NCBI RefSeq assembly: GCF_000002865.3
Contig: NW_001865041.1
Span: 793,793 to 857,792 of the forward strand
DNA length: 64,000 bases
Direction of reading: 5' to 3'
Source: Monosiga brevicollis MX1
Taxonomy: Eukaryota; Opisthokonta; Choanoflagellata; Craspedida; Salpingoecidae
Program-made: the position numbers and the translations under genes
Notes under the pieces: model-generated
What the model was told of the DNA's origin: nothing
Databases searched by the model: none
The model's input: only the letters and a program-made list of their open reading frames with translations
Shown: positions 13,301 through 29,905 of the stretch, piece after piece
How positions within the stretch are numbered: the first letter of the stretch is position 1
Layout: each line of letters starts with the position of its first letter

Positions 13301-16300
13301 TCCGACAACGTCTGCCAGGAACAACTCTGCGACTTGGCACGCGGCATTGCCGCAGAGGTCGAGCGGTTGCTCGATATTTCCCAATCGTCGTGCTCCAACA
13401 AACCCGAGCTTCAGCGCCTGGGTACATCCGCTTCTGCTGTGACGGCCAGCCTGGCCGAGCTCATCAACAGCGTGCCGGAGATCCTGGGCAGCGGCGCCTC
13501 GACCCAATTTGAACTTGCTTGTTCAGCTATATCCGATGCGGCAGAACGCCTTGAGACCGTAGGCGCCAATGGGCCTGAGCTGGTAGCCACCACCAAAACC
13601 CTGGCTCAAGCCGCTGCCGTGGTCGTGGGTGAGCTCAAGACCCGGGCAGCACACGAAACCGCGCCCGCCGCTCGCGAGGTACATCTCAAGAACGTGGAGC
13701 GCCTGGCACAAGGCACGAGTCAGATGGTAGCCGCCGCCAAGCTGGCGGCCCAGAACGTGCGCAGTAAGGAAGCTCGGCAGGCTCTGGTGGACTGCGCGCT
13801 GAACATTAAGAGCGTCACCACTGAAGTGGCTGGCAACAGTTTGGTGCAAAAGTCGATGCGGGACCTGCAGGGCGCTGCGAAACAGGCTACCGCAGCAGCC
13901 TCCCAGCTCCTCTCTGCATCGGAAGCCACCATGGAAATGATTAGCAGCCCGGCCACGCGTCAGCAACTAGAAGAACAGCTCAAAAGCGTGCGTACTCCTC
14001 TTAGCAAAACCGTTGCCGCTCTCCGCGATGTGCGCGAGAACCCAGGCAACACGAATGCGCAGCTCAGCTTGCTGACTCGTGCGCGCGAGCTCATTGCGCC
14101 CGCCCAGCGCTTCATGGCCGCAGCCAAAAGTGCCGCTCCCGCCATTGAGGAGCCGGCAGCAGCTGCACAGCTCACCGCGTGTTCTCGTGCACTGGGTGCT
14201 TGCTTGGCCGAGTTGAAGAGCGGCGTCACGGAGGCCAACGACGCTTGCCAAGACTTGGAAATCGAGTCAGCTGCCTTTGCTGTCAGCCAGCTGAGCGAGT
14301 ACTTGACCAGTGTTGTGGATCGTTCCAAGACAGGGCGCCTGCGCGTGTCGGGTTCGAACAACAACAACAAGCATGGGGCGCTCGTCAACGACGCTGCCAA
14401 GCAGCTCCAGGCCTCCATGAGTCAGCTTTTCACCGGCATTGACCAGCAGGACGAGAGCTACGCCAGCGCATGCTCGCGCTCCGTGGCCACCGCGGCCCGC
14501 GGCTTTGCAGAGCACGTCACGCGCTATGCCTCAACCTTGGAATCGCCCGCTGATCAGCAAGCGGTGCTCAGTGCTGCGGAGCGCGCTGTCACGGAGCTTG
14601 CCTCGGGTCTGGCTGTCGTGCGTACCGCAGTTGGCGGAGATCAACCAGCACGTACTACGCTAGAGACACAGGACAAAGCTTTCAGCGCTCGCCTAGGCGA
14701 TGTCACGGCCTACTTGCCCGGCCAGCTCGATATTCGGCGTGCCATGAGCTCCGTGCAAGGGGCCAAGGTTAAACTTGAGTCTAAGGCGCCTGCATCCGCC
14801 AAGCCTGACGTTAAAAAGTACACCGCAATGCAACACGAGCTTACAGTGGCAGCCGAGGTGTTCAACCAAGCTGCGGCCAAGATGGCTCGGGCACCACGCG
14901 AGGGCAGCAAGATGGCTCTGGCTCCGGCCAGCCAGGAGCTGGCTACAGCACACGAGCGTGTGGTGCAGGTGGGCATGTCCATGATGGAGAGTTGTGCTCG
15001 CCCTGAAGATCGCTCTGAGCTGATGAAGAAGCTAATGGCCATGAGCAACACGACCTCTGGCCTTCTATCTCAAGGTATGCCTCGTTTCGCGCCACGTTTG
15101 CGGCTCATGACATGGTGCAAAATAAATAAATAAAACAACTAGAATAAAATTACCTTCGCTGTGTTGCCCACTTCATCTTTTCTCGTTCTTTGAAACGTGC
15201 AATGCTTTGAGCTTGTTCAAGTGGCGCCTCTTCGTTTGTTTCTGGCCGTCTTTTTTTCTCACGAGTGGCCCATCGCCTTTGCTCTCGTGTAGTGGGCGCC
15301 GCCATGGCTAACAAGGATGGCCAACAGGCGCAATTGGGTTCGGCTATGCGTAATCTGACGACCTGCCTGAACGGTTTGCTGGAGACTTGCTCCAGTGCAG
15401 CTCCGGGTCAACAGGAGTGTGACACGGCTGAGCGCTCGCTGCAGGCCGTTCTCACAGGCACGGAGGAGGCCCTGGCTCCAGTGAGCTCACTCAACTACTT
15501 CCAGTGCTTTGACGAGATTATGGATGCCTCCAAGGAGCTGGGTTCCTCACTTGCGGCGCTGGCTGCTGGCGCTCGGGAGCAGGACATGGCTAAGTTTGGT
15601 GATGCCTTGGATGCTATGACTGGTTCCACGAGCCAACTGGTCCGAGCCAGCACGCAGGCAGCTTACTTGATGGCCGTCTCTGATCCTACTTCGACCACCG
15701 GGGAGCAGGGCCTTCTTGACCCCTTGGCCGTTGCTCAAGCAGCGCAGGCCATCGATGAGGCCGCAGTCCTGCTCATGAGTTCCTCGTCCACAAAGCCGAT
15801 TGCAAGTATCGCGCGGACTGTCGCCGCAAGCACGACCACGCTCAGCAATTTATGCAAGCTCGGAGCAACTCGAGCGAGCAATAAGACGCTGCGTACGCAG
15901 CTGGTAGATGCTGCACGAACCGTGGCCCAGACCACCTCTGCCCTTGTTCAGCACATCAAGCGATATGCCGCCGATCCATCCGATGCTCACAAAATGGCAG
16001 CTCAGGAGGCGTTTGCCTCGCTACAAGACTGTGCGCGACACCTTGTAACTCTGTCGGAGATGCCCGAGTACGCGTCTGCGGCGCCGCAAATCAGTGAAGG
16101 GGCTAAGCGCCGTCAGCAGCCGTACCTGGAGAGTGGTCGAGCCATTGCTGAAGCAGCCATAGCCGTGGTACGAACAGCTCGCAATCTGGCCGCCAATGCC
16201 AAGAATACGGAGCAGTGGCAGCAGCTTGCGGCCAACAGCAAGGCGGTGTCCGAGGCCATCAAGCGCCAGGCTGCTGTGATCAAGGCCCATTCGCCTGGGC

Positions 16301-19300
16301 AGCTGGAGTGTGACAACGCCACATACTTTTTGAACGAGGTCACGCACGACTTGAACGAGGCCGAGTATGCAGCTCAGCAGCAGGGCCTTGCGCCAATCGC
16401 CGAAAATTCCCTCGAAGGCTATCAACAGGATGCCATTACCGTGACTGACGACATTGGACAGGCTGCGCGTGCCGTGGCCGAGGCAGCCATAGGCTCAGCT
16501 CAGCACCTTGCGCAAGCAGCGCTGCGCCTGCAAAATGCCTTCAACCCACTCGTGAGTGCAGCCATGGGTGTGGCATCGCACTTGGGGGAGCGCAGCGTTC
16601 AAACCACGCTCCTGCAGCAGGCGAAGACGATTGTCGAAGCGGGTGCAGAGCTGCTCAATGCTGCCCGCGATTCCGGAGGCAACCCGGCAGCCTCGAGCCA
16701 ACACAAGGTGGTTAGCCTTGCAGCCCAGAACCTTCGTAAGTGCGTCAAGGAATTCGTTTTCAATCTGTCCCAGCGCAACGCTGAGGATGCTGTTGTACAA
16801 GGTACCATGTCCACGATTCAGCAAGCCATTGAGAGCTTGGCGGCCGGCAGTGCGGGTACGAGTGCAACGGCAGCGGCGGCTAGTGGTGACTACGTGGGCC
16901 AGTCCTTCGTGGAATACCAGGATGCTATCACGACAGACACGCGCAAGTTAGCCAAGCACGTCCAACAGCTTGTGGGACGGGTGGGCAGCGACCCAGCAGC
17001 CTTGGTGACCCTGGTTCAGGATATCAAGGACTGCTTTGTGACGATGACGGAGCATACGTCGGGGGCTCTGGTCAATATCAGTAGCGAGGCCGTGCAGTCT
17101 CACTTGCAAAAGAGCGTCACTGAGCTTGGTGGTGCCTGCGCGCGTGTGATTCAGGCTGCCAACGACGTTCGAAAGTCACCAGAAAGTGGTGATGTCAAGC
17201 AAGAGTTGGCATTGGCATCGCGGGAGTGTGCTAAGCAGGTGAACAGCGTGGTCGCCGCCTTGCAAGCTGGCTCGCAAGGCACGCAGGCTTGTTTGACAGC
17301 AGCAGCTGCCGTTGAGACGCAGCTGGCAGACCTTGAAACCATGGCACTCTTTGCGACGGCGGGCTCGGTAGCAGCCGAGGGCACCGAATCATTCCGTGAG
17401 CACCAGCCTCCCATGTTAGAGGCAGCACGAGGCCTCGTCGACCGAGCCAAGCGGCTCATTAGCAGTGCAGCCTCATCTCAGGGCGACTTGGCTGATGCCG
17501 CCGAGAACTGCCAGAGCATGTACAACGATCTGGTGGACAAGCTTAAACTGTCCCTTGATTCACTAGCTTCGGCAGGCCCCGAGGCCCAGGTTTTGCTCAT
17601 CAATGCTGCTCGCGATGTGGGCAACTCATTGGCAGACCTTCTCAACTCAACTCGCAAGGCCTCGGGCCGAAGTGCCGATGTAAGTACACTGCCCCCCTTT
17701 TTTTAATGCCTGTTCGCTTTTATGACACACATACTCGGCAAGTTTGCTCATTTTTTTTTTTTTCTTTGCTTGACAAAACAGGATCCAGCCATGCAAGCCT
17801 TGGGCCATCAGACAAAGCACATGGCCAACAGCGTCACAGCACTGTTGCGCACGGTCCAAACAGTTGAGAACGAGCAAGGGCGCGTGACGACAGCACTGAA
17901 GGCAGCGCAGGGGGCCATTGAGACGGAGGCCAGGTATGTGATGTGCTATTTTGGAGCATGGTGGTTTGGTTTAAAGCGTCAACAAGGAGACTGCACCGTT
18001 GTTTGTTTTTTTTGTTTTTTTTTTGGGGGGGGTTGTTTTTGTTTTTGTTTTTTGATCGATCAAAGGCTTATGATAGGTTTTCTGCTGGCCCATCTTCCCT
18101 TGTGCTTTTGGTTGTAATATGATCTTTGCCCGGGTCTGGCATGGGCCACCTCTTGATCTGTGTGCTTGGCAGCATCAAGTCAGACACAATCAAGGCCGAA
18201 GAAGTTGACGGGGCTGTGGATGACTTGTTGCAGGCGGGCCGTCCCTTGACGGCTGCTGTCACCAAGCTGGCTTCAGCGACCAACTCTGGTAATGCGTCAG
18301 ATCTCACAATGGCCGCCAATGTGGCTCGCAACGCCATGTGCAACCTCCTTAAACAGACACGGCGCTCGACAGCGGTTGGCGTGGCCCCCGCCACAGCCAA
18401 CAGTGTCATGCGCGAGGCTCAACGCTGTGCCTCCTCGCTCAATGAAATTTTTGAGGTGGCCCTCGAGCTTGAAGGGCGACCCGGCGATGCCACCGAGAAG
18501 GAGCGAGTGCGCAACGCCACCAAGGAAATTGCCGATGCCCTGACTAACCTCAACACCGCGGCTTTCTCTCTCAAGGGGTCGGATGACAGCACGGCTGGGG
18601 CACAAGAGCCTTCGGTCGCAGCCGAGCGTGAGTTGCTTTCTGCAGCGTCAACCATTGATGCCGTCACAATCAAGCTGGCGCGTCTAGAAGAATCCATTCC
18701 TGTCGCTGCCGCGGCTATCGATGAGTCGGCTCCCGTGGAGGAGCAGGTGCTACACGGTACACAGGCCATTACAGCAGCAACAGCAACGCTCGTCAAGGCA
18801 GCCACGGCTGCACAGCAAGAGCTTGGTAACGGGGGTGGGGATGAGAATAGTACGGCTGCTGATTTGGTAGCTGCTGCCAAGCTGGTCGCACACGCTACCC
18901 AAGAGCTATGTGACGGTGCCAACGCGTCGATGCGTGGTGATTTGTCTCAGGAACGCTTGGTCGCGGCAGCCAAATCGATCGCCAAGAGTACGGCCCAGCT
19001 GATTATGGCTTGCAAGGTAAAGATGCCCAGCAACAGCGGGCCAATGCGGCGCTTGCAAGCTGCTGGCAGTGCCGTCAAGAAAGCAGCGGAAAACCTGGTA
19101 CGCACCGTCCAGGCTGCCCCCACTGACGTGGAAGACTCAATTCAACTGGACGCCAGTCGTGTACATGCCATGAAGCAAGAGATTGAGGCGGTTGAGGCGA
19201 TTGTCAAGCAAGAGCGAGAACTTGAAGTTGCTAAACGCGCTCTGGCCAAGATTCGCGCCAACAAATATGGCAAAGGCTCGACTAAAGTCGATTGGGCTGG

Positions 19301-19319
19301 CAGTGTTCGCATCAAGTAA
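10383..19319 (+). CDS. TLN: Talin (FERM head, helical rod, C-terminal actin-binding domain)
   Basis: Adaptor linking integrin tails to F-actin. Hand splicing gives ten exons: 10383-10439, 10539-10611, 10709-10806, 10900-10983, 11084-11263, 11587-11736, 11858-15074, 15293-17679, 17782-17933 and 18173-19319. All are GT-AG, the phases agree, and the product is about 2,514 residues, close to animal talins. F0/F1 reads GDYGLLRKSEHGGFNLWLD and QRMLKIKLIDGSEKSIRTLM. F2/F3 runs through the start of the large exon (YGISFFKVKEKLKGKNKL, VRRWVASPNSFTLDFGDY). The rod is Ala-rich helical bundles throughout. The end carries SIAKSTAQLIMACKVK, typical of the I/LWEQ (THATCH) domain, then a dimerisation-type helix RALAKIRANKYGKGSTK. 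The head is cut into small exons while the rod sits in two very large ones. I see no break. Confidence 0.96.
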
Positions 19320-19702: not shown

Positions 19703-22700
19703 TTAAGCAAAGGCCAGTTCACCAAGGCCGAGCGCCGAGTATACGGTCTGCACCAGCCGCTCTGAGCACTCACGGTCCAACGCCAGGCGATTAACAGACA
19801 CCGCCATGGAGAGCTCACAGGTGGGGTCTGCAAAGCCCACGCTTCCCCCCAAGCCTAAATGACCAAATGGCCCATCTACCTGCTTGCCGTTGGGCAGCTG
19901 TCGCCTGGATAAAACCCCAGAAAGAGAAGAAGGCACGTAGGGGGGAGGGATGAGAACAAGTGTCCGTCGAGTGCGGAGCATGGGCCAATGATGTTGCTTC
20001 TCGCTAGTCCCAACCAGTCAAAACAGCAATGGAGACACGCACGTATATTTTTGAAATCCCAGTCCCCAGCGCATAGGTTCATCGCGCATGCCCATTTGCT
20101 CGCTGGCTTGCAGCTGTAGATTGAGTCGCATGCATAAAAGCAAGAAACCAGGTGTGCAGATGCAAATGACATTCAGACAGCGGTGAGTGGCACGGGATAG
20201 GCAAAACGTAAAACACGGCCTTGACCCCAAAACAAACGTACCCGACAGGCCTCCGTCATGGTCGCTTCATCCAAAAGGCGCACGCCATCCACTTCGCCGA
20301 CCAAAGAAGCATAAAACTTGGCTACTGCGCGAGCACTAAAGTGCCCATTTGCAGAAGGAATGCAGGCTCGGCGAACCTAGTCGTACAAGCATGAGCAAGC
20401 GATGACCATGAATGAGATTGTTTGATGAGCACGATAGAGCAGCAGGCACAGCCAGCTGTCATGTGTGCGTGTTGACAGCAGCGTACCATTGGTGCATTGT
20501 AGATGCACGGATCCGCCGTGAGCAGACGCGACAAATCAAAATCGGACGTGCTATCTGCTTCTGCTTCCATGGTGTTGGCAGCCTCCAGGGCCTGGGCATC
20601 TGAACGAGCCTCTGGCATGGATAGGCCACCTTCAGGTTCAAAATCACTGGCGTCGCCATTGGCTGGAGCTAGAGTGGGAGGGGCAGTCTCTTCATCTGTA
20701 GGAGCAGCCTCGACCAGTCGCTGCTTTTGCAGCATCGTCTCGTAACGTGAAAAGTCTTGAACGTTTGCAAGCAAGTCTCGAATATTGGCCACGGCCAGCG
20801 GCTGATCTGTCGCGACCGCATTAGTTACCATACTGGGGACATTGCCCTAGAATCAGAGAGCGTTCAAGTGAGTTCGCGCCCCAAGCAAAGCCGCGCGCAA
20901 CCCGGGTCCTAGACCAACAAGGAACAGATGCCGTGGTCGGCTGATGGGCTGCGCCAACCTTGGGATCAATGCAAATCAAGTAGGTCAAGTTGCAACGCAT
21001 GGGGTTGCTTGGGTCCACGCGACACACGGCGCCACCAATCAAGGTTTCGGCTCGTACCAACCTGCCCATCGCCGTCAAGAGCGAGTTTGTGCAGTCAGCG
21101 ACTTCTCCAGGTTGGCACAGCGGCAGGGATTGCGCCAAAGTAGCATGCATGGCCACCAAAAGCAAAGTACTTACCCAGGCTTGGCAGGGCAGTCGGGGTG
21201 CTCGATGGACTTGTTGCTCACAATGTAGCTGCCGTCAGCTGAAAACCGTACAGCTTGCAGCATGCAGAAATCGCGGCCACTGACGGGCCAAATGGGTTTG
21301 TACTCGTCACGAATGATCTGCGGGGTGGCAGCAACGGGAGGGCATGGGATAAAGGGATTGTTAGGAGAGCTTTGTAATGTGGTCGGCATGGGCAGCGCGC
21401 AATCATGTGACTGACGGTCGTGACTTCATCAAACTCCTCCACCACGTCGAGTTGAGCAAATTGAGAATTCCACTGCCCCTTTTTTGTTGGTTCACGCATC
21501 ACCTCAAAGACGGCTGCTGGTGGAGCATCAATGTCAGCATTGCCGCGCACCATAATGGCGTTGCTGCCCGGCATCTATCGTAAGGAAAGTAGGGTGAGGA
21601 GGAAGAGGCAGCGGTGCAATCAGATGGGGTTTTCATAGCCGCTGTTTGAACGAGGTATCAAAACACCACTGTATGAGAGAGGTGACTCGTTGTGGTGGCA
21701 AAGTTCGTACCGATTTCTTGTAAATCTCGATGTTTCGTGGGCGGCTGTGCAAAGTCCAGCCGTCCTCGGCACCAGCAAAACATTCATGTTCGACTTCGCG
21801 TTGGAGCTTCTCAATCAAAGCGTCATATTGAGTTGACTTGATTTCGCAGGCAGGGGGCCATACTTCAAAAGGATCGTCAACCGGTGGAGTCGGGCCGCTC
21901 TTCGTCTGGTTTGAGGCTGGTAAAACTTCGTGGGGTTCATTGGGTGCTTCGGCACCCTGAGCCTCACGGCGCTGCTCTTCCTCGAGCTCGATCTGTTTCT
22001 GTGTTTGGTCAATCTCTCGTAATTGCTGCATCATGCGACGAAGCTCATCCTCAGAAGGTGTCTCGCCGTCTGGTGAAACAAAAAACCTGACGGGCAAGGT
22101 TGAGTTAAAAAAAGTAAGCACCGCGTTGTTTGATGCTGCGTGTCAGGCAGTCACACTACCAACAAAATTGACGAAACCAAACTGTGAACACACCCGTTGC
22201 ATAGCGTGGCGATGCGCGACTGAAGCTTTTCCAGCCGACCATCTCCCAACCCAATAGACATTTCCTCCTAGCCAAACCGGAAATCACCATCGAAAGAAGA
22301 AAATAAAGAAAATGAAGCTCGAGAGTCCCGAGGCCTTGCTCGAACAGCACGATGCAAGAACCTTTGACAATCACGGTTGTTGTGCGAGCGACGCACCTCT
22401 AAGCCAAGCGGTTTGGCAATGTTATCTTGAACCCATGCAGCGAAAGGTTGGTGCGTGATGGCCTCCACTAGACCACCCACAAGCCACCCAAAAGAGAGAA
22501 TGTGGTAGCGCGTTACTCGCCCAGGCGTCGTGTCAGGCGATGCCTCTTGAATAATCTCCAACATTCGTTGCCAATTCACGAGATCACCAAGTTTAGCCCG
22601 CGAGTCTGGAACGCGATGCAAGCCAGCAGTGTGGGAGAGGACTTGGCCGACGGTGATGGGCTCTTTGCCATTACAGTCAAAGGCCTTCCAGTGGGCACCC

Positions 22701-23972
22701 ACGCGATCATATATGGCTACGTCGCCGCGCTGCTTGAGCAGATGCAGCGCAGCAGCGACAATGCCTTTGGTAACAGAAAAGCAATTCATGAGCGTGTCGC
22801 AACGGACAGGTCGCGGATCGGCCTCGCCCATGGTACCGGCACAGGTATCAACAATCAGTTCGCCCTGATAATAGACGGCCACTTGGATGCCGGTAAAGAG
22901 TCCCAGTCGTGAAAGTTCGCGCAGCGTATTGGTCACGGCGTCTTGGACGTGGGGAAACTTGGCCGCGCCTGCGGGAAGCGCTTTGGGCATCACCAGGTTC
23001 TCGGCATGGGTGGCTCGATCATGGTGGCGAAGTAAGGCCAGTTGGGCGTATGGTGCAAGCAAGGTAGAGTAGCGCACACGAACACCCAGCACGGCACACA
23101 GACCACGGAGCAAAAGAGTAACGCGGAAGAAGAACAGCAGTTCGGCGGGATATGCCTCGACTGGATTGCGCTCGCTCTTTGGAAGCTGTTGGCGCTTTTG
23201 CCACACGTCTTCACGAAACTTTTTGAACTGCTTGCGCATCTCATCGCCCGGTGCCGTATCACGCAGCACGAATCGAATGTTTTTCATGTCTTCAGCTGGG
23301 TCGTGGCGCTTCAGCTTGAGCCCCATATCATCAAACGAACCCAAAAGACTGCCAAAATCCATTGTGACAGCGCTGTACACCATGCGCGCAAAGGCAATGC
23401 GTTTCTCGTCATTGAGCTCGCGACACATGCCATAGTCCAAGAGGACTGGGCGGGCCGTCCCATCCTCGCCCACTTGAATCAAAAGGTTACCCGGATGGGG
23501 ATCGCTGGGTTCGGAAGCAAGCCCGGCAGGCCAGGGAGTGCAAAAGCGGGTGGAAAGCAGTTCACAAGACAATGAGTCAAGACACATTGAAAAAAAAAAA
23601 ATGGGTGCGGGTCGCGATCTGGAGTGGGAAGCGGGCATTACACACCAATTAAAAAAGCCTTGCACGTATACTTGGTGCGCAAAGGCTTGACAAATGCGGC
23701 GCATCAGGGCTTCCCGATCAATGCCATGGGCATCCAGCAATTCCGAGTCGGTGACCTTGAAACCTTTTGCAAACTCCATAGTTAGGAGTCGCTCCGTGCA
23801 ATACTTCTTGAACATGGCGGGAACAATGACATCAAGCTTGGCATCAGCCATGTTCGCCCGCACACGCTCTGAACTGAGCATTTCGTTTCGAAAGTCCAGC
23901 TCCTTGACTGCCACCTTGCTCCACTCGTCCAAGACAGGTCGAAAGTCGTAGGAGGGATCAAAATAGGCCACC

Positions 23973-24051
<79 letters not shown>

Positions 24052-25594
24052 CGTGTTTTCCATGAGTGAAAGTGCAGTAAAGAATAATCATTTCACCCAT
24101 GGCTGAGCGAAGCTGCTCGCGTGCTTCAAAGGCTGGAGCGTTGGCAAGCTTGTACGCACCAGTCAACAATTACAAAGAGGTTTTGAAGATCGTGCTTCAT
24201 GATGGTTTGGATGTTGCGGTGTTGCACCTTGCAAACAACCTTTGAGCCAGCACGATTTTTTTTTTTTTTCATTACACGTGAATGTTCCACGAATGGCAGA
24301 TACCGTTTGTTGGCATGGAAACGGTGAGCATACCTGCTGCCCTGTCTTGAGGGTGGCACGATGAACTTGTGCAATCGAGGCAGAGGCCAATGCCACGTCC
24401 TCAAAGTCGGTAAAGACAGTGTCTAGCGGGCATCCGAGTTCTGCTTCGATGTCTGCCCGCACTTCGTGGCCCGAGCGCTTGGGCATGGCATCTTGAAGCT
24501 TGGAAAGTTCTCGGACCCATGCGGCCGGCATGACGTCCCCACGCGATGACATGTATTGACCAACCTACAATAGTGGCAATGGCGGGCCGGCGGCACCAGG
24601 GTGAGGGTGATCGCCAATCGATAATGGGATAGAGGGACAAGAGTATAGGTCGTGTAAAAACAACTCGAGGAATGAGTTCTTGGCTGACAAGTTGACGCTG
24701 GTTTTCAAACCAATGTTATTAATGGTCTTGTTATTATCATTATCATTATTGTTATTATGAAAACGACTCTTCTTCAGTGAACATACCTTGACCCAAAATC
24801 CACGAAGAATGCGCACGTTGCGCTCAACGAGGCGGGCATTGAACTCGTGTACACGCTCCCAGCGTTCGTCATCCGCATCTGGATCAACTGGCTTGAAGCT
24901 CCAGTAAAAGCGATGAAGAACAATGTTGGCCATAACAATAGTGGCCACGGAATAGGCCCGAAATGTGCGCTTGACCAGAGTGGGCATGAGCCAAAAGGTG
25001 CTGACCGCAGCGAGCAGGGCGGCCATCCAGACCCATTGGTCGAGCACGGCACGGGCCATGGCTTTTGCAAAATCGGCGCGAAACTCGGGGCTCGAGTGAA
25101 GCAACACCGTCAATACATCCATAAGAGCATAGGCATGATCAGGGAATATCAAGAACAAGATGGCTCCCAGCGCAAGAAGTTGAGCCTAAGAGGCGGAGCA
25201 CGGCAAGTAAGCGGCTCTGCAAAGGTGACAAAAGAACACGGGGTAGTGACCTTTGTCCTTTCGCGAATGGACGAAACGGCAAAAGAGCAGGTGGGACATA
25301 CAAGCACAATGCCCAGCCACAAGCCCACATTAAAGCCGTGGGGGGCACGGCTGGATGCCGTGTCCAAGGTCTCGGCTCCTTCGTCATCAGCCTTTGAGCT
25401 GGGTTCAATGTCGGGGTGAGCTACGGCGTGGAGTTGCTCGGCCTCTTGGTGGCGCAGGCGCTGGCGCAGGCGGCGTTCGAGGATGCCTAATTGCTTCAAG
25501 TCGGCATCCACCTGCCGAAAAGTGCACTGGCTTGTGAGAGATAATCACCAACAACAAAAGTCAAAACTGAAACAAGCGGTCAAGCATCACACAT

Positions 25595-25675
<81 letters not shown>

Positions 25676-27180
25676 ACTGGCAGAGCAAACTTGGGATCGC
25701 ACCGGGAGATCAAAGATATCAAGGTTGTTGACTGGTTGCATGGAGGATGTATTGGGGGAAGCGCCCTCATGCTGACGCTGACGGATCTTGCCCAACACGG
25801 CAGTTTGACAGCTTTCGCACATGCGATGCTGCCCAAAAAAGAAGCTGGAGCATGCATCACAAAACACTTCACCACAGCCACGACTGGCCACCAAGGAGAC
25901 ACGTTGATGCGAGTGAGCCAAATTCTGGTCCGCGGTTAAGGGTGCGGGCAACCGACAGGCCAACGAGGCAAAATCCGTAGTTACAGTGCTTGTCATACCA
26001 GTGATGGCGTCGTCGAAAGAGATTGAAATGATTGGCACAGCCGACGCATGTCGAGCGTTCGGCGTCTGGAATCTGTGATGCATCAGACTCATTGAGTTCC
26101 ATTCTGGGGTTGAATAGGGCGCTGGATTCAAAGGATGGTGTCAGTATGCCACCGTCTTCCAACGACTTACCCAGGTGCGCGCCAAAAATTCGGCTACATC
26201 TTGCTCGGTCATTGTCGTATCCAAGGCACCATCAGCTGGCTCTTGGGGCGCGTTCTGCTCCTGCTTTGGTATGCTGTTGCGAACGGCAGCAAAAGCGGCT
26301 TTCAGAGGCTTGAAATAAGCTTGAATGAACTGCATCAGCACAATGATCAAAGCAACGTAAGCATCGCAAGAGACGATTGAGAAGGTGGCTGTTCAAAATT
26401 GGCCAGCATGGCCAGGAGAACTGGTGCCAGAAGAAGGAGGCACTTGTCCTTGCACTGCAGTGTCCTAGTACATTGAAGCAGCGTGGAGGCATGGGCCTAT
26501 ACCTTGCGATCGCCCGAGTAGGAGAGGCGGCCTTGAAGCAGGGCCGCGGGAAAGGAGAGGCGGCCCTGCACCAGCTGAAGAATGGTCTTGGCTGTTGTTA
26601 CAATCGTGGCACCTGTCGAGTGGAGGGTACCGAGTATTCCATAGCACCAAAGTTGAGACCACCAGGGCAAGGCGCTGCGGGGGGCACGTGCAGTTTGGAT
26701 ATACCCGCAAAAACCTTTTCAAAAGCATCGAAAGCAATGAGAGGGCAAGCAGAAGTGGAGCTTACGTGGGGTAGTTGGGGCCGCATCAGCGGTCCAATGA
26801 TCGAGGCCGTTGGCTGAAATACTACCGTGAAAGTATTGCTCGTCAATCTTGACCTGCAAAATTCCAATCGGCTGACTAATGATATTTCATGGTACGCGTC
26901 CAAGGGATCGCCGTGGAACCATTGGAAAGCATGCGTGGTGAGTTTACAGCGCACGAGACGGAGGATCAAGTAACATGCACCCTTCCCGTCCCAGCCCAAA
27001 AAAAGTCTGGAGGCATTATCGGCGTAGAAGCAGGGAGGGGCCGTTGGTGCGAAAAGTACAAGGCCTGATGGGAATGAGCAGGAGGACAACTCACTTTTCT
27101 TGCTTGTTACGCAATTCGGTGGCCAGGGCATCGGTGAAGAGCTCCACCAAGGTGGCATTGTCCAAAGTGGGTGCGGCCAT
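19703..27180 (-). CDS. SCP2-FYVE-ABC1 kinase-beta-lactamase/START multidomain protein
   Basis: Large spliced minus-strand gene. The start at 27180 reads MAAPTLDNATLVELFTDAL, followed by an SCP2-like sterol-carrier region (RATIVTTAKTILQLVQGRL, LLQGRLSYSGDRK; 26.3-26.8 kb). A FYVE finger follows: CVGCANHF, then RRRHHC completed across an intron by RGCGEVFCDAC (25.8-26.1 kb). Next come hydrophobic spans (24.8-25.4 kb) and an ABC1/UbiB kinase: KVGQYMSSRGD, SASIAQVHRA, VCKVQH, VKELDFRNE, SDPHPGNLL, LLDYG. A beta-lactamase-like domain begins with SVTKGIVAAALHLL (the SxxK motif) and YHILSFGWLVGG. It is interrupted by a coiled coil plus a START domain (20.8-22.1 kb) and resumes at RRACIPSANGHFSARAVAKF, closing with GHLGLGGSVGFADP and stop 19703. 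The SCP2-FYVE junction near 26,130-26,170 is off by one frame in my splicing, so two adjacent genes remain possible. Kinase plus beta-lactamase fusions are known in plants. Confidence 0.75.
23976..24047. repeat. (GT)n microsatellite in an intron of the multidomain gene
   Basis: About 36 GT units on the plus strand. It lies immediately beside the 5' end of the exon that begins VAYFDPSYDFRPVLDE, so the repeat almost touches that exon's splice acceptor. Confidence 0.97.
25599..25672. repeat. (CA)n microsatellite in an intron of the multidomain gene
   Basis: About 37 CA units in the intron between the FYVE exon and the following exon. Confidence 0.98.
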
Positions 27181-27498
27181 GGTGAGATGAAGATCAGGCA
27201 CGCGCCCACAGCTCGATGGGCGAGCGGAGATCAAAGTTGGCAGCTCTGGCTCAAGCCCGATCAAGCCCGGGGCGTGGCCTCTGATAACCAGATCCTCTCA
27301 AGGGTTGGACAATACGGAGCAAGGGCCACCAAGGCAGACGTGCACACCGAGCGAACAAGCTCTCGCATGAAGGCACGGCACCGGGGGGGAGGCGGGGGGG
27401 CCTTGAACCACTAACAAGCGAAACAACTGTAGAAGACAGCGAAGAGAGACCGAAGAGAGACACAGTGTATGTGTGTGTGCTCTCACACACATACAGTT

Positions 27499-27589
<91 letters not shown>

Positions 27590-27862
27590 CACACAAACAC
27601 AAAAGGCATGTGCATCTCTCTTCTTCTTCGTGAAAAAAAAAAAAAAAAGAAAGAGATTGTGCAAAAAGTATTTTACTTCTTTTATGCTGGTTTCCGTGCA
27701 AGCAAGCGTTTTTATTTTTTAATTTTGGTGCGGCAGTGGCACAAGTGGAGACAGACAAGTGGAGCAGAGATGCAACCAGATGGGGACAGACAGCGTCGTT
27801 GCCTTTGAGCTGGACCATAACAGGGACATCTTCGGTTTGGTTATTGGTCGCATATCGACATC
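27181..27862. promoter_or_regulatory. Divergent intergenic region, multidomain gene / MFSD5-like
   Basis: About 680 bases between two diverging starts. It holds a CA repeat of about 100 bases (with CACACG variation at its right end) and an A-run at 27637-27652. No gene seen. Confidence 0.5.
27502..27600. repeat. (CA)n microsatellite in divergent promoter
   Basis: Nearly 50 CA units with a few impurities, between two diverging start codons. Confidence 0.97.
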
Positions 27863-29905
27863 ATGGAGGAGGCGTTGACTGAGCCAGCGCCCTTCCCCGA
27901 CCACGAGCTGGCCGTGGGCAGTGTGGCTGCCGCCCTCCTGCTGATGGGCCTGTTGCTTTACGAACGGCGCCACCACGCTGCGGTGCAGAGCTCGCCATCT
28001 TCGCGTTTGGAGGAGTCACCGACCACCGCTCGTGAACATTCTGCTCAAACGTATGTCCACCAGCCTGCTTGGCAGCGCGGTGCCGTGCTCCTTCGACACA
28101 TGATGTGCCCCTCAATGCCCCGGTGTGTTCAGAAGCAACCAACGCCACTGGCAGCAGCTGTACCTCCTGATCTACTCCATGCTCGTGGCAGCAGACTGGG
28201 TTCAAGGTACAAACCTTTTTGGCTGGCTGCCTCTTAATGCGTGTGCAGGATAGCACCTCATGAACGCGGTTGTGCTGAGCCCCCCCTCAGGTCCTTACAT
28301 GTACCGGCTCTACCAGGCGTATGGCTTTACCTTGGCTCAAAACGGCCAGCTCTTCATTGCCGGCTTTGCTTCCAGCATGGTTTTCGGCACGGTGGCGGGT
28401 ACTCTGGCCGATCGCTTTGGGCGTAAACGCGGTGCGTGCAATACATGTAACCAATAGCATCGGTCTGCCAAAGACCAGGCTCAGCTCAAGTTGAGCAGTC
28501 CAGATACTCATCAATCCTTTGACCTGCACATTTTGCTTGTCCTTTTGATCTGTCCGGGTGGGCATGTGGGTGCGATCCTTGAAACATCTGCATGGGTCAT
28601 TAGGCACAATTTTATACACACTAGTCTACGGCCTTTCTTGCTTGACCAAGCACGCCCGCGATTTTCCCACATTGATGGTTGGCCGCATCTTGGGAGGCCT
28701 GGCCACCAGCCTGCTCTTCACCGTGCCAGAAAGCTGGGTGGTGGCAGAGCACGGGCGCCGGCGTCTCTCGGACAGCACGTTGACCGCGCTTTTTGCCGAT
28801 ATGAGCGTGATCAACGGTCTCACTGCCATCGGCGCTGGTTGGTTGGCCGAGGGAGCTGTGGCTGCCGCACAGCACCCAGTTGGCGCGTTTGACCTCTCCC
28901 TGGTCCTGCTGATCCTTGGCGGGCTGGCTGTGAGCCTGTGCTGGTCAGAAAACTTTGGTGACCAAACCGTCGGGGTTGTGGGCCATCTGTGGGAAGGCAT
29001 GGCAACGGTCACTTCGTCACCACAGCTCTCAGCCCTCGCTGCCGTGCAGTCCATCTTTGAGGCAGCCATGTATGTGTTTGTCTTCCTCTACACCCCGGCG
29101 CTGCAGCGCGTGGCTGGGCGCGATGACTTGCCCTTTGGCACCCTCTTTGCCTGTCTGATGGTGGCCGTGGCCATGGGTGGGGGGCTCGCCAAGCTCCTGC
29201 TGAGTTATGGCAAGTGGACTGCTTCCCGGCTATTGGTGGTGGTGATGCTGGGTGCCGCGGTGGCCTGCGCTGGTTTGGCTCTTGCCAGCTCAACTCATCA
29301 GTTTCTCGGGGCCATGCTTGCATTTGAGGTTTGTGCATTGCGCCACCCTTGTCCCACCTTCCTCCATGCCCGTAAAATGTGGCGCGGATTGCCCCACGAT
29401 CAGCCTTGCGTACTTTTCATTCGGCTCCATCGAGTTGCCCGTAGGTGCTCGTGGGTATGTATTGGCCTTGTATCAGCACGGTTCGGAGTCGCCTGATTCC
29501 TGAGGCACTGCGTGCCACTATTCTGAACCTGTTTCGCGTGCCCTTGAACGTCTTCGTTTGCACGGCGTTATTGGGCATTGACCAGTGGCCCGAGTCCGTG
29601 ACGCTAGGCCTCTGTGGTGCGGCGCTGATGGGTGGTGAGTCGCCAGCTAACGGCATGTTTATGCGCGGCATCATGCCAACTATGATGGGAAGGCTGTCTG
29701 GTCAAGACTGGTCAAGACTGGCGCCGTCTGATTGCGTTGTACAATCCTTTGGTTTGTTTGTGTGTGCTCACGCACTGCTGCCCGTTTGCTAGGGAGTGGT
29801 ATCGCCCTGATGCTCCAGTGCGGCCAGCCGGACAAGGTCAAGGCTGCAGCTCCATCGCAAGAGCCACAAATCCAGACAAAGGCCTTGGCGCAGAGAAGAA
29901 AGTGA
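27863..29905 (+). CDS. MFSD5: MFSD5-like major facilitator (molybdate-anion transporter family)
   Basis: Twelve-span major facilitator of the MFSD5/MOT2 group, proposed to carry molybdate across membranes. Exon 1 opens at 27863 with one hydrophobic span (SVAAALLLMGLLLY). The next exon reads YLLIYSMLVAADWVQG and continues PYMYRLYQAYGF, the family signature. The MFS loop is LADRFGRKR near 28,430. Further spans follow in ILYTLVYGLSCL, GRILGGLATSLLFTVPESW and MSVINGLTAIGAGWLAE, and the C-terminal half lies at 28,860-29,700. The last exon begins near 29,793 and ends ALAQRRK at TGA 29903-29905. Relatives run to about 450 residues, and the exons found are consistent with a complete gene. The function is transferred from the family only. 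Confidence 0.85.

Follow-up and report, generated by a model that had tools for sequence, protein, structure and literature searches.

A 64,000-nucleotide stretch of contig NW_001865041.1 of Monosiga brevicollis MX1 (positions 793,793 to 857,792; hereafter the window) contains, on its minus strand, a gene for a predicted ABC1/UbiB kinase fused to a beta-lactamase-fold hydrolase, in which a START lipid-binding domain is inserted between two complementary pieces of the hydrolase. Joining the open stretches at GT-AG sites yielded a gene running from 27180 to 19703, with 21 exons, 1565 codons and one stop. On the spliced product, Pfam matches were found in the order SCP2 (weak), FYVE, ABC1, the first part of beta-lactamase, START and the last part of beta-lactamase (Table 1). 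This architecture and the common fold of the two hydrolase pieces are supported by the sequence, the splice model, homologous proteins and the structure prediction of relatives. The original prediction, which placed a beta-lactamase-like domain with START nested in it at 19703..22800, covered real parts of the gene but only its C-terminal part, and it missed the SCP2-like domain, the FYVE finger and the hydrophobic segments encoded further upstream; the peptides that it quoted were found on the minus strand at the given places between 22.8 and 19.7 kb.

The beta-lactamase profile matched the spliced protein in two stretches (1e-47 for the protein), the best being that ahead of START. The piece following START, tested alone, matched profile positions 214-313 (3.7e-8, 33.3 bits; cut-off 27), whereas the preceding piece matched positions 14-180, so that neither flank holds a whole domain. 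A beta-lactamase domain that was complete on either side of START alone would have spoken against nesting; it was looked for with Pfam and is thereby ruled out. The hydrolase motifs, namely SxxK (S899-V-T-K902), the catalytic Tyr (Y989) and the third motif, W/HxG (H1514-x-G), are intact, and the protein is predicted to be a family VIII carboxylesterase-like serine hydrolase, a putative esterase. In the predicted structures of two relatives, P0001 and P0006, one beta-lactamase-type fold is built from both sides of the insert, and the START part of the P0001 model matched human STARD5 (2r55_A) with a template modelling (TM) score of 0.85 normalized by the target (helix-grip fold). On these profile matches and models, the hydrolase is one domain predicted to fold from two sequence pieces around START, as originally proposed. 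The insert borders were set at alignment columns in which 12 START-less relatives have few or no residues (P0001 residues ~483-767) and were transferred to the numbering of the window protein.

Table 1. Features of the START-containing kinase-hydrolase gene, in window coordinates
Feature	Position	Strand	Basis
Whole gene	19703..27180, introns included	-	splice model; 21 exons, 1565 amino acids
SCP2-like domain, amino acids 34-109, over two introns	26309..26862	-	Pfam 0.0011, 19.7 bits; cut-off 21.3
FYVE zinc finger, amino acids 154-208	25799..26176	-	Pfam 51.9 bits, 8.2e-14; WxxD, RRHHC, RxC
Two hydrophobic segments, amino acids 306-324 and 362-380	24976..25316	-	Kyte-Doolittle scan
ABC1/UbiB atypical kinase, amino acids 465-706	23354..24501	-	Pfam 225.9 bits, 5.6e-67
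Beta-lactamase-fold hydrolase, first part, amino acids 859-1026	22265..22897	-	Pfam profile 14-180 of 329; S899-V-T-K902, Y989
Inserted segment, ~amino acids 1088-1411: helix-rich linker, START, acidic linker	20546..21974	-	columns (nearly) empty in START-less relatives
START domain, amino acids 1155-1328	20793..21773	-	Pfam 89 bits (cut-off 22), 3.5e-25
Beta-lactamase-fold hydrolase, last part, amino acids 1430-1565	19706..20489	-	profile 214-313; RRACIPSANGH, H1514-x-G

All 20 introns are of the GT-AG type (94-222 nucleotides), and the reading frame is kept throughout. The nine splice junctions between amino acids 1025 and 1498 are gap-free in the alignments to both P0001 and P0002; each of the alignments to P0004, P0005 and P0007 shows a gap within 8 residues of two of these junctions. 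Among the local alignments to these five relatives, none reached the junction at amino acid 28 and only that to P0002 reached the one at amino acid 65, and the model is therefore least secure in exons 1-3. The annotated protein MONBRDRAFT_36162 (M. brevicollis MX1, 557 amino acids; uncharacterized at NCBI and bearing a START-domain name in UniRef) corresponds to the model from amino acid 970 to the end, minus 39 amino acids of START. It thus lacks the first 969 amino acids and leaves out exon 20959-21061 together with what amounts by count to 14 bases of the exon that follows (region 20833-21061). Because the corresponding residues, including the missing 39, occur in homologues such as P0001 and P0002, we take the annotated protein to be short in both places. 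A six-frame START profile search of the whole genome gave no match at this gene because the START coding sequence is spread over five exons; the best match of the equivalent beta-lactamase search was to this gene. The late start of MONBRDRAFT_36162 and its omission of part of START could be read as signs that the parts come from two or more genes, through an artefact of the gene model or assembly. This is very improbable: the introns and the frame, the gap-free junctions against P0001 and P0002, the complementarity of the two beta-lactamase pieces, and three EukProt proteins labelled as complete open reading frames (ORFs) that hold the whole order from FYVE on all argue against it. An origin from two separate genes was rejected in view of the frame, the junction alignments and the homologous proteins. 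Transcripts split at START would have pointed to separate genes; instead, MONBRDRAFT_36162 and the EukProt proteins extend across START into the hydrolase parts on either side.

Relatives were collected by three protein searches, each of which scored only the ~8000 candidates sharing most words. In total, matches to both START and beta-lactamase were identified by Pfam in 11 proteins (P0001-P0007 and P0121-P0124). Among the best 120 of the 148 relatives in the first search, START was found in seven; the other 113, the named ones being mostly from plants, contain beta-lactamase without START, 112 of them together with ABC1. In seven of the 11 proteins (P0001-P0007), beta-lactamase matches in two stretches and START lies between the FGW and IPxANG motifs; the domain order of the window protein therefore occurs in other proteins as well. 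In the remaining four, the first beta-lactamase part is partial (P0122, the annotated M. brevicollis protein) or missing (P0121), or the protein ends shortly past the insert (P0123 and P0124). P0001, P0002, P0004 and P0007 are EukProt entries, and P0002, P0004 and P0007 are labelled complete ORFs and contain FYVE; labels of the types 'm.N g.N ... comp' and 'TRINITY_DN' presumably denote transcriptome assemblies. The window protein is 41-62% identical to P0001, P0002, P0004, P0005 and P0007 over the aligned residues.

The distance between FGW and IPxANG is 434 residues in the window protein, 395 in P0122, 402-431 in the five relatives just named, 625 in P0006 and 760 in P0003. It is 113 residues in the START-less P0010 (Clim_evm12s47, the prefix of which we take to denote Corallochytrium limacisporum) and 75-198 in the START-less rows having both motifs, a range that excludes P0008, whose motifs were matched in the wrong order. 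P0008, a plant protein (Turnera subulata, 1230 amino acids), contains, by eye, repeated beta-lactamase-like parts. The insert segment itself contains two START matches and a PDZ domain in P0003 and PDZ domains with one START in P0006, and in P0121 three START matches lie ahead of the last beta-lactamase part.

The position of the insert was compared with solved structures. Aligned by sequence to 5gmx, P0001 matches up to residue 427 (= 211) and resumes at 782 (= 252). In its best stretch, the family profile matches up to chain position 250 of EH7 and up to ~184-191 in class C chains (1c3b and 5ggw, for example); the omega loop of AmpC presumably spans ~189-226. According to the consulted passages of PMC9795927, region R1 of EH7 comprises Phe230-Gly275 and borders, together with R2, the S1 part of the active site, and the greater R1 length of EstB reportedly limits substrate access. 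By sequence position, the START insert would fall in this variable R1 segment at the rim of the substrate pocket, and since R1 borders the pocket in a solved family VIII esterase, gating of the serine is geometrically plausible.

The WxxD, RRHHC and RxC motifs of the FYVE finger are intact at amino acids 155, 176 and 200, respectively, with a predicted intron inside RRHHC; WxxD, R(R/K)HHC and RxC are hallmarks of FYVE domains that bind phosphatidylinositol 3-phosphate (PI3P). The two hydrophobic segments probably form a membrane hairpin, and the protein would then be membrane-bound. At least two such segments lie ahead of the kinase in P0002, P0004, P0005, P0007 and P0010, whereas none was detected by the same Kyte-Doolittle scan in P0016, the one plant protein scanned. 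The SCP2 match exceeds the cut-off of 21.3 bits in P0002 (34.6 bits) and P0004 (28.0 bits). ABC1K/UbiB proteins are marked by KxGQ, an Ala-rich loop, a catalytic Lys, DPHPGN and the DFG-like LLDYG; KxGQ, SASIAQVH, VxxK, DPHPGN and LLDYG are all present here (amino acids 443, 504, 521, 657 and 677, respectively), KxGQ lying just upstream of the Pfam kinase domain.

A tree built from the kinase and hydrolase sequences after removal of the insert (19 rows, 805 columns; midpoint root) placed all eight START-holders included on one side of one branch (96/98); P0128 forms a long branch, and P0001, P0003, P0006 and P0036 were entered without the KxGQ start point. P0010 keeps the hydrophobic hairpin, kinase and hydrolase, with FYVE-like matches below the cut-off; its hydrolase is uninterrupted and START is absent. 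In these respects it resembles a pre-insertion state. Most simply, START would have been inserted a single time, in a common ancestor of the START-holders found, into a protein that by then possessed the hairpin-kinase-hydrolase order and a FYVE-like finger. A genome search for a donor START gave six matches, of which five are the gene's own exons and the sixth (C25:415975-416343) shows 30% identity over a portion of the domain (E 1.7e-6). On the same contig, C25, the START match L001 (G000:C25:414439-417816) lies ~20 kb from separate beta-lactamase-like matches (L003 and L004), a layout unrelated to that of the studied gene as far as seen.

How START might act can be read in several ways. One reading, to which we give an even chance, is that START, inserted at the R1 rim, feeds lipid to the hydrolase of a FYVE/hairpin/UbiB membrane protein. 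FYVE and the hairpin would place the protein on an endosomal-type, PI3P-marked membrane; START, with its predicted lipid binding, would extract a lipid from this membrane and, fixed at the pocket rim, hand it to Ser899, where an ester or acyl bond would be cleaved; and the UbiB kinase, SCP2 and START together would constitute a lipid-processing device. Several observations weigh against this reading. In P0003, P0006 and P0121 the segment carries PDZ domains or more than one START, which suits a permissive surface loop equally well, and P0003 has no HxG motif, ending before it. The models are of relatives rather than of the window protein, with predicted TM scores of 0.66 and 0.50 that leave the placing of START relative to the hydrolase unfixed; parts of the linkers fall below 50 in the predicted local distance difference test (pLDDT), and the mean pLDDT of the P0006 model is only 66.0, yet it gave the same fold result as P0001. 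As to R1, the profile match continues to 216 in 5gmx and 228 in 5gkv, the point where a local profile match stops says little about where a loop begins, and equating chain position 250 of 7pp3 with residue ~230 assumes a 20-residue tag (chain length 429 versus numbering to 409). SCP2 scores below the cut-off in the window protein, and at a threshold of 0.01 Pfam gave no SCP2 match in P0007 and no FYVE match in P0005. The tree is rooted at the midpoint only, and the branch by which P0010 adjoins the START-holders (93/88) is below the star level of the tool.

If the segment is simply a tolerant loop, START could be an independent lipid sensor, membrane tether or carrier uncoupled from the serine site. 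The low-confidence linkers that flank START in the model of P0001 (484-502 and 736-770), the PDZ domains and tandem START noted above and the variable length of the FGW-IPxANG segment in START-less rows are consistent with such uncoupling, but in all seven proteins with both flanks START is enclosed by these two motifs, and it has been kept through the deep divergence separating the five relatives from the window protein, and is inserted, by position, in a region bordering substrate access in EH7; we regard uncoupling as possible but doubtful. The original prediction suggested that START could be a lipid-gated lid, which with or without ligand opens or closes access to Ser899, the lipid being an effector and not a substrate. 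The intact catalytic motifs and the location in R1, next to S1 in EH7, agree with a lid, as does the restricted access attributed to the longer R1 of EstB in the part of PMC9795927 consulted; the low model confidence of the linkers makes a tight lid less likely, and we consider it improbable. The presence of PDZ and tandem START in the segment speaks for a tolerant slot, its R1 position for coupling. START may feed or control a lipid-cutting active site. A combined scenario can be put forward tentatively: the R1 slot was filled once by START and, in some lineages, subsequently took up PDZ or repeated START as well, yielding a lipid-transfer module that feeds or switches the hydrolase on PI3P membranes and is coupled to UbiB.

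In the surroundings of the gene, open stretches at 15211-17706 and 18123-19319 on the plus strand encode talin-like rod, vinculin-binding and I/LWEQ domains; this talin gene is convergent with the studied gene, and ~380 bases separate the end of its last open stretch from the stop codon of the latter. A part of an MFS_5 transporter gene (28549-29496, plus strand) is divergent from the studied gene. Long (GT)n/(CA)n runs lie inside introns of the studied gene (~23975-24050 and 25600-25680), and a long (GT)n or (CA)n run is found just upstream of its start (~27480-27600).

If the combined scenario is true, the gene encodes a lipid-processing machine of endosomes for which the literature found offers no precedent. 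A START domain nested in a beta-lactamase-like domain, or the full architecture, was not found described in the portions of the open-licence PubMed Central (PMC) literature consulted, among them those of PMC12419801, PMC10214851, PMC4805650, PMC1560137 and PMC10341546. Because further lipid-linked modules accompany the kinase and hydrolase and START lies in the segment shaping substrate access, a membrane lipid ester becomes a testable guess for the substrate of the whole family. The proteins also provide a clear before-and-after case of domain insertion, as P0010 shares with the window protein the hydrophobic hairpin, the UbiB kinase, their order with the hydrolase and all three hydrolase motifs but has an uninterrupted hydrolase without START, and other relatives carry further domains in the same insertion segment.

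The START of P0001 resembles known START proteins, matching STARD6 (2mou, 2.2e-10) and STARD5 (2r55, 4.3e-8) by sequence and, in its predicted fold, STARD5, STARD4 and StAR; the difference from STARD4/5/6 and StAR is that START is here nested in a hydrolase. The family VIII carboxylesterases 5gmx, 5gkv, 7y3z and EH7 (7pp3) are bacterial or metagenomic and lack such an insert, and the HxG of the window protein is nearer to the H-X-X of subfamily VIII.3 than to W-X-G, as these are given in the passages of PMC9795927 consulted. The plant fusions of ABC1K and beta-lactamase to which the gene had originally been likened are real relatives: our protein search retrieved them, and ABC1-S12 fusions of Arabidopsis and rice (At5g24810 and LOC_Os06g48770) were described in 2006 (PMC1560137, in the part consulted). 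Like the window protein, they contain an ABC1 kinase followed by a serine beta-lactamase-like domain, with the same hydrolase motifs in P0016, but they have no START insert (the segment is mostly ~90 residues in rows with both motifs), no FYVE or SCP2 among the Pfam domains listed and, in P0016, no hydrophobic segments. The Monosiga variant would thus add further lipid-linked modules to a kinase and a hydrolase, with START in the segment shaping substrate access: the ABC1K-beta-lactamase fusion is known, and what appears to be new, as far as the literature consulted goes, is the insertion of START into the hydrolase of such a fusion.
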